Part shown: positions 27,908 through 37,263 of the stretch, one piece after another
Layout: each line of letters opens with the position of its first letter
How positions within the stretch are numbered: position 1 is the first letter of the stretch
DNA from: Thermomicrobium sp. 4228-Ro
GTDB taxonomy: Bacteria; Chloroflexota; Chloroflexia; Thermomicrobiales; Thermomicrobiaceae
Direction of reading: 5' to 3'
Length of the DNA: 64,000 nucleotides
NCBI RefSeq assembly: GCF_026241205.1
Contig: NZ_JAPFQM010000006.1
Coordinates: 434,001 to 498,000, forward strand
Notes under the pieces: model-generated
Databases searched by the model: none
Seen by the model: only the letters and a program-made list of their open reading frames with translations
Told to the model about the DNA's origin: nothing
Made by a program: the position numbers and the translations under genes

Positions 27908-29584
27908 TCAGGCGCAACAGGAGAGATGGCTGACGTCCTGCGTCACGGCGAGCGCGGCGAGGCGCAGCCCCTCGGCGCTGGTGAGATAGGGGGCGAGATG
28001 CTCGCGGAGATCGCTCAGCGTCAGCCGGCTGGCGACCGCGAGCGTCGCAGCATCGATCAGTTCACCAGCTGCGCTGGCGACAGCCTGGACGCCCAGGAGC
28101 CGGTCCGTCGCGGCATCGGCGACGACCAGCACGCCGCCAGCGTCCTGCAGGTTCACGCGCTCGCGAGCGATCGCAGCAGCCGGTGCGAAGCCGGTGACGA
28201 CCGAGAACCCCTCGGCCTCCGCCTCGGCGACCGAGAGCCCGACTGTCGCGACTTGCGGGTCGGTGAAGACGACAGCCGGGACAGCACGCAGGTCCAATGG
28301 GCGGTCCTCGCCGAGAAGGGCGTTCCGGGCGGCGAGGCGACCGGCTGCTGCCGCGACGGAGACGAACTGCGGGAGAAGCGTCACGTCACCTGCCGCGTAG
28401 ACGCGCGGGTTGGTCGTGCGCAGGGTGGGATCGACGAGGGGCGCGCTGCGCTCGTCGGTCGCGATGCCGGCAGCCGCTAGGTCGAGCGACTCGGTGTTCG
28501 GCGTGCGACCAGTGGCGACCAGGAGCGCTTCCGCTTCGACGACCTCCTCGTGGCCGGCCCGGAGGGCGACGACCCGCACGCCACCCGCTACGCGCTCGAC
28601 GCGCTGGACGGTCATGCCGAGTGCAAGACGCATTCCCTCGGCGGCGAGCCGTTCCTGGAGGCTGGTCGCGAGCCGCTCGTCGAGGTCGGGCAGGAGACGT
28701 GGACGTCGCTGGAGCAACGTCACGGCGGTGCCGAGTCGCAGGAAGGCCTGGCCGAGTTCGAGCGCGACGTACCCAGCGCCCAGGACGATGAGCGAGTCAG
28801 GGAGATGCTCGAGTTCGAGTGCGGTGGTGCTGGTGAGGTAGGGAACATCGGTCAGACCGGGAATCGCTGGAACGGCGGGACGGGCGCCGGTCGCGAGCAG
28901 GACGGCGCGGGGGCGAATGCGCCGCTCTCCGACCGCAACCGTCTCGGGATCGAGGAACCGAGCGGTGCCACGCAGGAGTTCCCAGCCGTAAAAGTCGACG
29001 AGTTCCTCGTACTTCTCGCGGCGGAGCGTGGCGATGAGCGACCGTTGCTGCTCGCGGAGCGCCGGGAGGTCGATTCCCTCGAGACGCGTCCGGATCCCCT
29101 GGTACGGGGCAGTGGCCGCGAGGTGGGCGACCTCGGCAGCGCGCAGGAAGAACTTGCTAGGGACACAGCCGATATTCACGCAGGTGCCGCCGAGGGTACC
29201 CTGTTCGACCATGACGACGCGGGCACCGAGCTGGCGCGCCTCGATGGCGGCAGCGAAGCCAGCGCTCCCACCGCCGATGATCAGGAGGTCGGTGTCGAAG
29301 CGGTCGGATGAACCTGCTGCCTCGCGGGGCAGGGAACCTGGCGAGACCGTGAAATCACCGGGGACGTACCGGTGGCTGGGCGAGCCAGCGGCGCGGACTG
29401 CTGCGCGGAACCGCTCGAGGTCGGCTCCTGGCTCGATGAAGAAGGTGACGAGCCCGCGCTGCCAGTCGGCTTGCGGATCGCGTGCTCCCGCCTGGGCGAG
29501 TGCCTGCTCGACCCGCTGCTCGCAGTCCCGGCACGTCATTCCCGCGACCGTCAGCGTGACGCGTAGGCGGTTCGATTCCGTCAT
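27908..29584 (-). CDS. merA: Mercuric reductase MerA-like flavoprotein with N-terminal HMA domain
   Basis: 558 residues from ATG 29584 (GGAAGGG upstream; a GTG 24 bases earlier is possible). Residues 5-70 are a heavy-metal-associated domain with GMTCRDCE. Then FAD-binding IIGGGSAGFAAA, redox-active GGTCVNIGCVPSK, NAD(P)H-binding GAGYVALELG, a second FAD motif VYAAGDV, and a C-terminal SCCA vicinal cysteine pair. That C-terminal pair and the HMA domain distinguish MerA from lipoamide dehydrogenase. It reduces Hg(II) to Hg(0) with NADPH in the cytoplasm. No merR, merT or merP lies beside it. Confidence 0.9.
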   Translation of the reverse strand: MTESNRLRVTLTVAGMTCRDCEQRVEQALAQAGARDPQADWQRGLVTFFIEPGADLERFRAAVRAAGSPSHRYVPGDFTVSPGSLPREAAGSSDRFDTDLLIIGGGSAGFAAAIEARQLGARVVMVEQGTLGGTCVNIGCVPSKFFLRAAEVAHLAATAPYQGIRTRLEGIDLPALREQQRSLIATLRREKYEELVDFYGWELLRGTARFLDPETVAVGERRIRPRAVLLATGARPAVPAIPGLTDVPYLTSTTALELEHLPDSLIVLGAGYVALELGQAFLRLGTAVTLLQRRPRLLPDLDERLATSLQERLAAEGMRLALGMTVQRVERVAGGVRVVALRAGHEEVVEAEALLVATGRTPNTESLDLAAAGIATDERSAPLVDPTLRTTNPRVYAAGDVTLLPQFVSVAAAAGRLAARNALLGEDRPLDLRAVPAVVFTDPQVATVGLSVAEAEAEGFSVVTGFAPAAAIARERVNLQDAGGVLVVADAATDRLLGVQAVASAAGELIDAATLAVASRLTLSDLREHLAPYLTSAEGLRLAALAVTQDVSHLSCCA

Positions 29585-29849
29585 GGGGTATTTCCCTTCC
29601 GGCGACACACTGCCGCCAGTATATACGCACTATCGCATGCTTTTTCGGCTTCATGATCGTCTATCTGTTCGCTTTAAACGCACCAACGCTCGCCGATGCT
29701 CACTGTAACACATACGGAAATTCGGAAGCAAGGTGTCGTCCCGCTTCGCCGACGAACGGGGTGCTCGGTCAGGAATGGAGGTGTCGCTAGGTGTGGTCTC
29801 GGTTATCCTTCCGGCAGCGTTGTCGAGTCGGCACGGCGGGAGGCGTGCG

Positions 29850-32540: not shown

Positions 32541-33320
32541 TCACCTAGCCGACTGGTGGCCGTTGCTCCCCACGGTGACGGCCTGGTGGCTCGGTAGCTC
32601 GAGGTCGGCGCGAATGTTGTCCTCGAAGTGCTCGATATGGCGGCGCATCGCTTCGCGGGCGGCGACCGGGTCGCCTGCCGCGATCGCTGCGTAGATCTCC
32701 TCGTGGCCCTCGTGCGTGCGCGCCAGTCGCTCCGCGGAGCGCGTCGTCATGAGCCAGCTGCTGAAGAGCACCTCGCTGAGCGGCCGCCGAGCTTCGCGGA
32801 GCAGGCGGTTACCGGCTGCGTCCATGATCGCCTCGTGGAAGGCGATGTCCAGATTGACGTAGTTGGAGGGATCGGAAAGGGCCGCGCGCATCCGTTCCAG
32901 GATCTCGCTGAGCTGCGCCAGCTGCTCCGGCGTGCGGCGTTGCGCTGCCAGCTCCGCTGCTGCCAGTTCCAGGATCTTGCGCAGCTCCAGGATCTCCTCG
33001 AGCCAGCTCGGATCGCGGTTGGAGCGCAGCCGTTCGAAGAGGATCTGCGGGTCGAGATGATCCCACTGCTCCGGTGGTTGGATCCACATCCCGCTCCCGT
33101 GGCGGACCGCGACCAGCCCTTTCTCAGCGAGGATGCGGATCGCCTCGCGGATGACGATGCGGCTCACCCCGAACTGCCGGGCCAGCTCCGGCTCCGAGGG
33201 CAGCGCCGTGCCCGGCGGAAGCGCCCCGCTGACGATCTGCTTGAGCAGCTCTTCCACCACCCGCTGGTGCAGTCGCGCCTGGGTGATCGGCTTTGCAGTG
33301 ACCGGTGTTGCTCTCATCAT
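32541..33320 (-). CDS. GntR/FadR-family transcriptional regulator (FCD domain)
   Basis: 259 residues from the first ATG at 33320 with GAGGAG 7 bases upstream. Winged helix-turn-helix at about 20-80 (LPSEPELARQFGVSRIVIREAIRILAEKGLV), then an all-helical FCD ligand domain with metal-binding His/Asp residues (DIAFHEAIMDAAGN, THEGHEEIYAAI, RRHIEHFEDN). FadR-subfamily regulators sense carboxylic acids or amino acids. It lies in the same direction and downstream of the racemase genes, but 237 bp from the nearest, so its target is not evident. Confidence 0.9.
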   Translation of the reverse strand: MMRATPVTAKPITQARLHQRVVEELLKQIVSGALPPGTALPSEPELARQFGVSRIVIREAIRILAEKGLVAVRHGSGMWIQPPEQWDHLDPQILFERLRSNRDPSWLEEILELRKILELAAAELAAQRRTPEQLAQLSEILERMRAALSDPSNYVNLDIAFHEAIMDAAGNRLLREARRPLSEVLFSSWLMTTRSAERLARTHEGHEEIYAAIAAGDPVAAREAMRRHIEHFEDNIRADLELPSHQAVTVGSNGHQSAR

Positions 33321-33557
33321 CGCACACTCCTCAATCCTGCTCATCACAGGTCTTTCGTTTCGCTCCTAAAGTGTATCGCGTTCCGCGTGGCGAACGTGAA
33401 CGCATCGTTTCGCCACCCCGAAGAGTTTGCCAATGTTCTGCCGTGCAGTGTGCCAGGGATATCCTGACCTCTTCGGTGCAGCTGGGACAAAGGCTAAAGC
33501 GCGTTTACCGGGGACGAACGACGGGCAGCGGCTTTCCCGGCCGGTGCGGAGTCCGCG

Positions 33558-35903
33558 CTAGCGCCAGGGGCGGCCACCGACGACAGAGACGAGCGCGATG
33601 GCGAGCGCGAGCCAGCTCACGACCAGTGCGGCGTCGGGAATCACGGCAGGGAGGATATAGGCGACGAGGAGCAGAGCTGTGGCGATCGCCGCCCAGCGCC
33701 ACTGCCGGCCGAGCAGACGGCCGATGGCCAGCGCGGCTGCAACGAGGATGCTCGCGGTGACGACCGGTTCGCTCGTCGCGGGGATAGCTGGCTCGAGCGC
33801 GAGGCCGAGGCGCGCGGGCGAGAGCGGTCCGGTCAAGGCGCGCGCGAGCGCGAGCAGTCCGGCAACGGCTGCCGGTAGCCAGAACCAGGGCTGGCCGGCT
33901 GTTCCGGCCCGTGTGCTGCGGAGGCGGGCCAGGCCCAATGCGCCCAGCGCGAGGAGGCTCACCGCTGCGATCTCGCTGTTACCGCTCAGACGCTCGACGA
34001 GGATCGCGCTGAGCGCGATCGTGCCGGTGCTCAACCACGCGAGCGGGTACCACCATGGTCGGTGAACGAGCAGGAAGCCGCCCGCGGTCGAGGCGGTGAG
34101 CGCTGCCAGAAGGATTCCGAAACGGACCGGTGTCGTGGGCTGGTGGAGGGTTACCGCCGCGGCGATACTCGCAGCGACGAGGAGTCCCACCGCGGTCCAG
34201 CGCCAGATGCTCCGGGAGTCGATCGCCAGGAGCGCGACAGCCAGCGCTGACCAAGCGAGCGGCGCCAGAGTCGACTCCGGATGCCGGCCGACGGCCAGTG
34301 CGAAGGCTGCCACTGCGAACCCGCCAACGATCGTGGCCGGCTGGAGACTCGTGCCCCTGTTCTGCGCAGCACACCGAAGCAGCAGCGCGAGGACAGCGCT
34401 CCCCAGAGCGAAGGCAGTCAGGCCGATCGCTTGGGTCGTCGCCGAGGCCGACCGGAGTGACCAGCTGGTCGCACCGAAGACGAGTCCTGCGGTGAGCGCG
34501 ACGAGAGTGGGCAGTCCCCGGCGTCCTTCCCACTGTGCCCGAACGAGAAGCGGTGCGTACGCCAACCACGGCAGTATGGTGCGTGGAAGCACCGCCGGAC
34601 TGCTTGCCAGCGCGAGTAGCGTGGGTACCAGCGGGGCGAGCGGCAGCCATTCCCACGCGACCGAGTGGTCGGAGCGCTGCAGGCCGGACCAGGCGAGTCC
34701 AGCCGCGAGCAGGACGATACCGGTGCCCCACACCGCCAGAAGCAGAACCGGGAAGAACGACCAAACTAAAGGCGTGATTCCGAGGACAGCGAGAGCAAAG
34801 CCGGTGGCGAGTACATCGGCACGTCGCCAGGCGAGCGTTGCCGCTGCGAGTGCGACGAGGCTGGCGCTGACCAAGGCGTTGAGCTGGAGCGGGATCGGCG
34901 CATGCAGGGCAGCGAGTCTGCTCCAGGCGGTAGCCGCGCTCACCGCGATCGCGAGCAGGAGCTGAGCCTCTTGGCGGAGGTGCGGTGTTGCCGCGACGAG
35001 CCCGACGAGTGCGAGGCTCGCGAGGTTCCCGGCGAACAGCGTGACCCATCGATCTCCGCCGGGCAAGGGTACGAAGCCCAGAACGCTTGCTAGGGCGAGA
35101 GCCTCCCCGGTCACGAGCAACCCTATCAGTGCCCATATCCCGACATGTCTCGTATCGAGAGTAGCGAGCGCTCGCGTTGGGAGCGGGGAGCGCCGTCCTC
35201 GCTTCGACGCCAGAGCGATCGGGTGGTCCGCCTGCTTCACGACCGTCGAGGGAGGCTCTGGACGGCGCAGGTCGTGCCGTGGGGTGGCGTGATGCCGAGC
35301 GGCCTCGTCGGGCGTCGCGTGTTCGGAACGGGACTGCGCCGCTTGGCTCGCTTGGCTACTGGTTCGCCCTGCCTGGACGTCGCTCGCCTCTCCTGGATCG
35401 GTAAGTCGGTCCGGTCCGCTCTGGACGGGCCCTCGTTCGAGCTGATTCGACCGTCCTTCCTGTGTTCCGACGTCGCGATCCAGCCTCGCCTGTGCCAGAG
35501 GACGCAACAGGACAGTCACGGTTTTTGCGTTGTTCGCTGCAACACGTATCGCCTGCAAGAGCTCCTCGGCGCGGCTGTTCTTGCTCACATAGGTACACGC
35601 TCCTGCTGCCCGAGCGGCCTCACCGTGTGTCGTCGCGTCGTACATGGTGAGCATGACGATCCGGATGTTGGGGAACCGCTCGTGGAGCGCAGCTGTTGCA
35701 GCGATCCCGTCGAGGTCGGGCATCGCGATGTCCATCAGGACGACATCGGGAGCGAGGGTTCGAGCGAGTTCGAGTGCCTCGTTGCCGGATGCCGCTTCGC
35801 CGACAACGACCAGATCCTCAGTCGTTGCCAGGAGTTGACGCAGCCCTTGCCGGAAGAGCGCGTGATCATCGACGAGCAGAATGCGGATCGGTCGCTCGGC
35901 CAT
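33558..35903 (-). CDS. Response-regulator receiver domain fused to a polytopic membrane domain
   Basis: 781 residues from ATG 35903. Residues 4-125 are a NarL-type receiver: acidic pair D12/D13, phospho-acceptor D58 (VVLMDIAMPD), T86 and K108 (YVSKN). The LuxR-type HTH that normally follows is replaced by a hydrophilic linker (about 130-240), after which about 540 residues are almost continuously hydrophobic, about 16-18 transmembrane helices, with no transporter motif recognised. If read through as encoded, phosphorylation would act directly on a membrane protein. The alternative is two genes, with the membrane part starting internally at an undetected start. Confidence 0.75.
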   Translation of the reverse strand: MAERPIRILLVDDHALFRQGLRQLLATTEDLVVVGEAASGNEALELARTLAPDVVLMDIAMPDLDGIAATAALHERFPNIRIVMLTMYDATTHGEAARAAGACTYVSKNSRAEELLQAIRVAANNAKTVTVLLRPLAQARLDRDVGTQEGRSNQLERGPVQSGPDRLTDPGEASDVQAGRTSSQASQAAQSRSEHATPDEAARHHATPRHDLRRPEPPSTVVKQADHPIALASKRGRRSPLPTRALATLDTRHVGIWALIGLLVTGEALALASVLGFVPLPGGDRWVTLFAGNLASLALVGLVAATPHLRQEAQLLLAIAVSAATAWSRLAALHAPIPLQLNALVSASLVALAAATLAWRRADVLATGFALAVLGITPLVWSFFPVLLLAVWGTGIVLLAAGLAWSGLQRSDHSVAWEWLPLAPLVPTLLALASSPAVLPRTILPWLAYAPLLVRAQWEGRRGLPTLVALTAGLVFGATSWSLRSASATTQAIGLTAFALGSAVLALLLRCAAQNRGTSLQPATIVGGFAVAAFALAVGRHPESTLAPLAWSALAVALLAIDSRSIWRWTAVGLLVAASIAAAVTLHQPTTPVRFGILLAALTASTAGGFLLVHRPWWYPLAWLSTGTIALSAILVERLSGNSEIAAVSLLALGALGLARLRSTRAGTAGQPWFWLPAAVAGLLALARALTGPLSPARLGLALEPAIPATSEPVVTASILVAAALAIGRLLGRQWRWAAIATALLLVAYILPAVIPDAALVVSWLALAIALVSVVGGRPWR

Positions 35904-35991: not shown

Positions 35992-37263
35992 CTACTCGGT
36001 AACGGCGACGTCGCGCTCGAGCAGACCGAAGGAGTCCGCGAGGGCGACCGGCTCGCCACCGCGGACGTAGACGCGGGGAATGCGTGCCGCCAGACTGGTG
36101 AGGATCTCGTACGCGATCGTCCCGCTGAGTTCAGCTGCCTCCCAGGCGGTCATCGCGCCGCTCGCTGGGTCGCCGAGCACGATGACCGGGTCACCGAGCT
36201 GGGCCTGGGGCACATCCTCGAGGGAGATGATCGTCTGGTCCATGCAGACCCGGCCGCGGATGGGACAGCGGATCCCGTGGACGAGGAACCACCCTCGGTT
36301 GGAGAGTGCACGGGGGAGACCGTCGGCGTAGCCGACTGGGACGAGCCCACAACGGGTGGGGCGGTCGGTAACGTAGGTATGGCCGTAGGAGATCCCTTCG
36401 CCGGCATCGACGGTGAAGCAGCGCGTGAGCCGCGCACGGAGCTGCAGAGCTGGCCGGACGCCTGCCGGGAGCGACATGGCCGGGTCGGGCGTCAGTCCGT
36501 AGAAGGCGATTCCGGCCCGGACGACCCGACGACCGGGTAGATCCGGGTCGCCGATCGCGCCGCGGAGCGTCGCCGCGCTGTTGGCCTGGTGGACGACCGG
36601 TGGGTGCAATCCCTCGGCGACCAGCCGTTCGCGGACGGCGCGAAAGCGCGCGAGCTGGAGGCGGAGCGTGCGGCAATCGGGCGCATCAGCCGTAGCGAAA
36701 TGGGTGTAGATCCCCTCGAACTCCAGTGCGGGATCGCTGCGGAGAGCCCGGGCCAGCGCGATCGCTTCCGCTGGGTCGGCGCCGAAGCGGTGCATACCGG
36801 TATCGACCTCGAGGTGGACGCGGGCGCGACGGCCGAGCGCGCTGGCGGCACGACGCACGGCGAGGAGGTCAGCCAGCGAACCGACTGCCAGCGTGATATC
36901 GGCGGCGATCGCCTCGCGGAGCCGACCGGCGTTGGGTGGGCCGAGCACGACGACGGGCGCGGTGATCCCGGCCTGGCGGAGTACCAGCCCCTCCTCGATC
37001 CGGGCGACGCCGAGCCAGCGGGCACCACCGGCGAGGGCAGCGCGTGCTGTCGGTACCAGCCCGTGACCGTACGCGTTCGCCTTGAGGACAGCCAGGAGTT
37101 CGACGTCCGGTGGGAGCGTCCGGAGCAGTGCACGGGCATTCGCCGCGAGCTGGTCGAGGTCGACTGCGGCGTGCAGTGCCGAGTAGGCGGCGCGGAGACG
37201 GTCGCACCAACCGCTCGAGCACGCCGGTGACCTGTCGGGAGCGGTCCGGTCCGCGATCCCCAT
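35992..37263 (-). CDS. alr: Alanine racemase
   Basis: 423 residues if started at ATG 37263; the conserved fold begins at about residue 33 (AAVDLDQLAANARAL), so a later start is possible and would give the usual about 390. The PLP lysine is in AVLKANAYGHG and the catalytic Tyr of the second half is in GISYGHTYV. VHLEVDTGMHRFG and GRVCMDQTII are also conserved. It makes D-Ala for peptidoglycan. Downstream of, and same direction as, the proline-racemase-like gene, and 88 bp upstream of the receiver fusion. Confidence 0.92.
   Translation of the reverse strand: MGIADRTAPDRSPACSSGWCDRLRAAYSALHAAVDLDQLAANARALLRTLPPDVELLAVLKANAYGHGLVPTARAALAGGARWLGVARIEEGLVLRQAGITAPVVVLGPPNAGRLREAIAADITLAVGSLADLLAVRRAASALGRRARVHLEVDTGMHRFGADPAEAIALARALRSDPALEFEGIYTHFATADAPDCRTLRLQLARFRAVRERLVAEGLHPPVVHQANSAATLRGAIGDPDLPGRRVVRAGIAFYGLTPDPAMSLPAGVRPALQLRARLTRCFTVDAGEGISYGHTYVTDRPTRCGLVPVGYADGLPRALSNRGWFLVHGIRCPIRGRVCMDQTIISLEDVPQAQLGDPVIVLGDPASGAMTAWEAAELSGTIAYEILTSLAARIPRVYVRGGEPVALADSFGLLERDVAVTE

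Follow-up and report, generated by a model that had tools for sequence, protein, structure and literature searches.

Within a 64,000-nucleotide stretch of the Thermomicrobium sp. 4228-Ro genome (hereafter the window), part of an assembly of 13 contigs and 3,068,448 bases, a single uninterrupted frame of 781 aa joins a response regulator receiver to a large membrane region (Table 1). Alanine racemase (alr) lies 88 bases upstream on the same strand and is a syntenic neighbour, not part of the mechanism considered below. A scan for promoters and terminators returned nothing, and neither HisKA_3 nor HATPase_c has any match inside the window, in agreement with an earlier note on this DNA that had seen no adjacent histidine kinase. 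Elsewhere in the window, a pyridine nucleotide-disulphide oxidoreductase (27908-29608, minus strand) resembles mercuric reductase: its N-terminal part weakly matches a heavy-metal-associated domain (PF00403), and its C-terminal part has a CC pair.

Table 1. Features of the fusion locus, in window positions.
Feature	Position	Strand	Basis
Receiver-DUF2339 fusion gene, 781 aa + stop	33558..35903	(-)	Single open frame; same architecture in 7 other genomes, three genera
NarL-type receiver domain, residues 1-127, with D12, D13, D58, T86, K108	35523..35903	(-)	PF00072; AlphaFold receiver
D58 codon (phospho-acceptor aspartate)	35730..35732	(-)	Sequence position; invariant in 8 fusions
Low-complexity linker, residues 128-250	35154..35522	(-)	DSSP on models; alignment
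Divergent, C-terminally truncated DUF2339 membrane domain (by homology), residues 251-775, ~20 predicted helices	33579..35153	(-)	Profile-profile chain to DUF2339; PF10101 matches in g3 relatives; helices and charge bias
Alanine racemase (alr)	35992..37197	(-)	PF01168 E 1.1e-69, PF00842 E 9.1e-44
GntR/FCD regulator, downstream of fusion	32541..33347	(-)	PF07729 and PF00392; synteny

The N-terminal part of the protein is a complete receiver of the NarL type, as the earlier note had proposed from D58, T86 and K108. The match to PF00072 runs over residues 8-120 (E 5.9e-28), and the five catalytic positions D12, D13, D58, T86 and K108 are all present and invariant in an alignment of eight fusions, so that the window protein carries the receiver fold, the acidic pair, the phospho-acceptor aspartate, the T/S and the lysine that define response regulators. 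Residues 1-127 are likewise modelled as a receiver by AlphaFold2 (pLDDT mostly 70-90), and a fold search, which essentially covered the receiver part only, aligned the model with receivers in the PDB, including those of the NarL-type regulators VraR and LiaR (Z about 20). Together with the strong constraint on this domain described below, the invariance of the catalytic residues argues for active phosphotransfer. Response_reg is the sole Pfam match of the window protein at E<=1, and still at E<=10; no helix-turn-helix family occurs among the Pfam matches of the eight fusions at E<=10, and thus the GerE/LuxR HTH of NarL/FixJ regulators is missing, bearing out the suggestion that the protein has no DNA-binding domain.

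The same fusion, which the earlier note had proposed to seek in other Thermomicrobia, occupies a conserved locus across three genera of the Thermomicrobiaceae (here g1, which includes the window genome, g3 and g4). Full-length, single-frame homologues were found in G001, G002 (Thermomicrobium sp. CFH 73360), G006 (Bacterium HR28), G008, G009, G013 (Thermalbibacter longus) and G016; a further copy, in G018, is cut by a contig end. The GntR/FCD neighbour is common to all relatives examined, and alr adjoins the fusion throughout g1 and also in G009, lying further away in G008. In G009 (L025:3912-7916) alr lies downstream of the fusion, as opposed to upstream in Thermomicrobium. The agreement of eight genomes rules out an assembly or frameshift artefact, and the relatives carry one gene where two separate ones had been envisaged as grounds for doubt; the receiver-membrane fusion without a DNA-binding domain is genuine. 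Long-frame receiver matches elsewhere in the order yielded no other receiver-membrane fusion: the ones that could be resolved proved to be soluble regulators of the ordinary kind, and at two loci no receiver could be read. The pairing of a receiver with the membrane domain identified below as DUF2339 was found only in the Thermomicrobiaceae.

Estimates of dN/dS fall at 0.06-0.29 in the receiver and at 0.22-0.47 in the membrane half, ratios by which both halves are judged to be under purifying selection; the linker, at 0.40-0.69 where estimable, is looser. One Thermomicrobium species, G004, retains only a decayed copy (L024:6700-8981, G004:C94), whose receiver is interrupted by a stop and altered by D13G and which also has frameshifts, amid intact neighbouring genes; the fusion gene is thus dispensable in that species.

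Downstream of the receiver, AlphaFold2 gives residues 128-250 no predicted structure or helix. DUF2339 proteins commonly, though not by strict definition, have a helical stretch resembling a coiled coil ahead of their membrane region. No such helix is modelled in the window protein; in its Thermalbibacter relative, a coiled-coil-like helix is modelled in the linker at residues 197-222. Helices then span residues 251-775, where confidence in the model is low (pLDDT about 45-70). The earlier count of about 18 membrane helices comes close, as 19 are modelled and 20 result when residues 415-434 are included. The 19-helix topology has no positive-inside bias, and the 20-helix topology places 18 K/R inside and 5 outside for an N-in/C-in arrangement; the twentieth helix was added by hand, post hoc, and the charge bias is accordingly support, not proof. 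We predict an N-in/C-in orientation for the membrane half on this model. The last helices and a motif, LSPxRLGLxLxP..PDAxLVxSW, are strongly conserved in the fusions, and the only solved structures to emerge as relatives of the membrane half were insignificant potassium transporter matches (E 0.34 or worse).

Profile comparison allows this region to be placed. Four of the eight fusion proteins match PF10101 (DUF2339) in Pfam, with a best E of 7.1e-18, and the g3 fusions, taken as genome matches, reach E 3.6e-18 and 52.6-64.9 bits against a Pfam cut-off of 33.6. The window protein alone has no PF10101 match with HMMER and falls short of the curated Pfam cut-off; its membrane region is linked to DUF2339 through a chain of profiles. 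The g3/g4 membrane halves match DUF2339 of the phylum at a probability of 100% (E 1.4e-65), g1 including the window matches g3/g4 at 99.4% (E 5e-22), g1 matches DUF2339 directly at 97.9% and the window alone at 95.8%, with a reversed control at 9.5%; the E-values of such pairwise profile-profile comparisons are not database-calibrated. Aligned with 21 Chloroflexota DUF2339 sequences, the fusions end at column 663-664 of 874, leaving the last ~200 residues of DUF2339 missing. This block holds the family's most conserved positions (W784, R804, K817, D822, R831 and G839 in the numbering of the G421 protein). Judged by homology, then, the membrane half is a divergent, derived and C-terminally truncated DUF2339 domain.

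Among non-fusion DUF2339 proteins with a readable N-terminus, none was found to start with a receiver, across 301 sampled genomes of the phylum and 158 of the class; the readable ones in the phylum carry the ~200-residue, highly conserved C-terminal block. Within the family itself, G014 carries a receiver-less DUF2339 whose two contig pieces together cover the whole profile, and the membrane halves of the fusions form one clade in a tree (100/100). Receiver-less, full-length DUF2339 elsewhere, combined with this single fusion clade, shows that one lineage acquired the receiver and shed the C-terminal core. The proposal of a new signalling output is partly supported: the receiver pairing was found in this family only, and phosphorylation may control the membrane part, but the membrane half itself is a derived DUF2339 and not new.

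The receiver, too, has an apparent source. The nearest other receiver in the genome belongs to P0004 (genome C1:726163-726837), a regulator of the NarL type that has a GerE HTH and was found in 20 of 21 genomes of the family, the exception being a 54%-complete genome. The two receivers have the same catalytic residues, and their identity is 55% in the window genome and reaches 79% in G013; across same-genome orthologues identity is 73-79% in g3, where alpha-1 is near-identical, and 55-58% in g1. Fusions and P0004 orthologues group together in a receiver tree (87/72), which is compatible with one origin of the fusion receivers at a support that is not strong (55/79). On these comparisons, the fusion receiver is a duplicate of a P0004-type NarL regulator. 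P0004 adjoins, at genome C1:726-729 kb, a gene for a 753-residue GAF/GAF/HisKA_3 kinase (C1:727-729 kb), and this GAF-domain kinase is our best guess for the partner, since it lies beside the regulator from which the receiver was duplicated. HATPase_c has no match in this kinase (L147:4925-7186), nor in a DegS-like orphan kinase (L146:5164-6234) found in most family genomes. As a dedicated partner the DegS-like kinase is weakened by its occurrence in fusion-less genera and by the failure to find it in the fusion-bearing G001.

Taken together, we give an even chance to the reading that the protein is a non-transcriptional response regulator, in which a cytoplasmic NarL-type receiver is joined covalently to a polytopic, derived DUF2339 membrane domain and is switched by phosphorylation. 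D58 would be phosphorylated by a kinase of the NarL type, for which the GAF-domain kinase next to P0004 is the likeliest candidate; the changed receiver state or dimerisation would be passed on to the membrane domain; and the activity of that domain, probably in envelope or lipid homeostasis, would be switched. Since the protein has no module other than the receiver and the membrane domain, the state of the membrane domain is what phosphorylation would most plausibly alter. Against this reading, no kinase adjoins the fusion and no HATPase_c match was detected in the favoured one, one Thermomicrobium species has let its copy decay, and the membrane model is of low confidence in a protein that, alone, HMMER does not assign to PF10101.

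A link to lipids is suggested by what is known of the family and of the organism. Arc3A, a DUF2339 protein of Pseudomonas aeruginosa, limits how far lysophospholipids build up through the action of the phospholipase effector Tle3, and does so separately from Aas-mediated reacylation (PMC8926400). It also gives protection from lipase effectors (PMC12663445). Membranes of T. roseum are built of 1,2-diols rather than glycerolipids, and its genome is without plsB (PMC2615216). In our comparison, PlsY (PF02660) is weak (72-94 bits) or not found in the fusion genera and scores 159-180 bits, where found, in the fusion-less genera of the family (g2, g5); the PlsY region of the window genome is at G000:C6:786035-786529. 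Divergent or missing PlsY is perhaps tied to diol membrane lipids, and the pattern fits a remodelled, lipid-related role of the fusion; it is not proof, as a single lineage event is possible. Because the fusion has lost the most conserved part of DUF2339, Arc3A-like activity should not be assumed for it. More tentatively still, the output of the two-component system may be a ~20-helix membrane protein, derived from DUF2339 and controlled directly by phosphorylation, that arose once in the Thermomicrobiaceae alongside a change in membrane-lipid chemistry, with one kinase driving both P0004 and the membrane effector.

Other readings of the same architecture have to be weighed. It is conceivable, though we think it unlikely, that the protein is a membrane-tethered phosphate sink or decoy, whose receiver competes with P0004 for the phosphate of a shared kinase and whose truncated DUF2339 is mainly an anchor. 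The derivation of the receiver from P0004, with its near-identical alpha-1 in g3, would suit such competition, as would the loss of the conserved C-terminal core and the faster evolution of the membrane half relative to the receiver; however, some 20 helices under purifying selection make a costly anchor where one would suffice, and the last helices and the LSPxRLGLxLxP..PDAxLVxSW motif show strong conservation. With a somewhat smaller chance, the membrane domain could be an input, sensing the state of the membrane or a ligand and thereby modulating receiver phosphorylation or dimerisation, leaving the receiver to act on a soluble partner. For archaeal regulators, it has been suggested that the domains associated with receivers act as inputs (PMC5847659), and the fusion has no output domain other than its membrane part; yet receivers normally control the output of their own protein, and no partner gene is apparent.

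We consider it improbable that the fusion is decaying or neutral, with little function. The broken copy in G004, the lost C-terminal core and the diverged linker of the window protein, lacking a helix present in a relative, lean that way, but dN/dS well below 1 in both halves for several pairs, intact frames in eight genomes and invariant catalytic residues speak against it. Least probable is the production of two separate proteins from one locus by an internal start or proteolysis, to which the long and poorly conserved linker would lend itself: the gene is single in all relatives, no in-frame start with a ribosome site lies near 35190, where one had been thought to count against the fusion, and the candidates around it (GTG 35240 and TTG 35120 being nearest, then GTG 35114) are without ribosome sites and unmatched in position in the relatives, and on these grounds we reject an internal start that would yield a free membrane protein.

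In bacteria, most response regulators work via DNA binding, enzymes or protein binding. P0004, like other NarL/LiaR-type regulators, shares its receiver and catalytic residues with the fusion and carries a GerE HTH, whereas the fusion has none and ends in the membrane domain. DUF2339 proteins, Arc3A included, have a homologous polytopic membrane domain, and relatives of the window protein keep a coiled-coil-like, proline-rich N-terminal linker; unlike them, the fusion has an added N-terminal receiver and is without the last ~200 residues, the block that bears a W, K-x-F, D and YRV-x-SF-x-GLG. Membrane-anchored receivers are on record in archaea, as in MetOD3-REC-MetOD2 of Methanoregula, which similarly joins a receiver to a membrane part and has a narrow lineage distribution (PMC5847659). 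There, however, MetOD3 has ~180 residues and is N-terminal, in contrast to the C-terminal, ~525-residue, ~20-helix DUF2339-derived domain of the fusion. Open-access full texts yielded no membrane-bound response regulators of relevance, and receiver fusions are not the topic of papers naming DUF2339 as far as titles and abstracts tell, neither of which is proof of absence; a response regulator with a DUF2339-derived membrane output is previously unreported.

Covalent attachment of a receiver to a large, polytopic membrane domain would open a direct route from kinase to membrane. Furthermore, the fusion offers a way into DUF2339, a family that is widespread and has a single known phenotype, the control of lysophospholipids; it shows which part of DUF2339 can be dropped and suggests which face of the domain is cytoplasmic.
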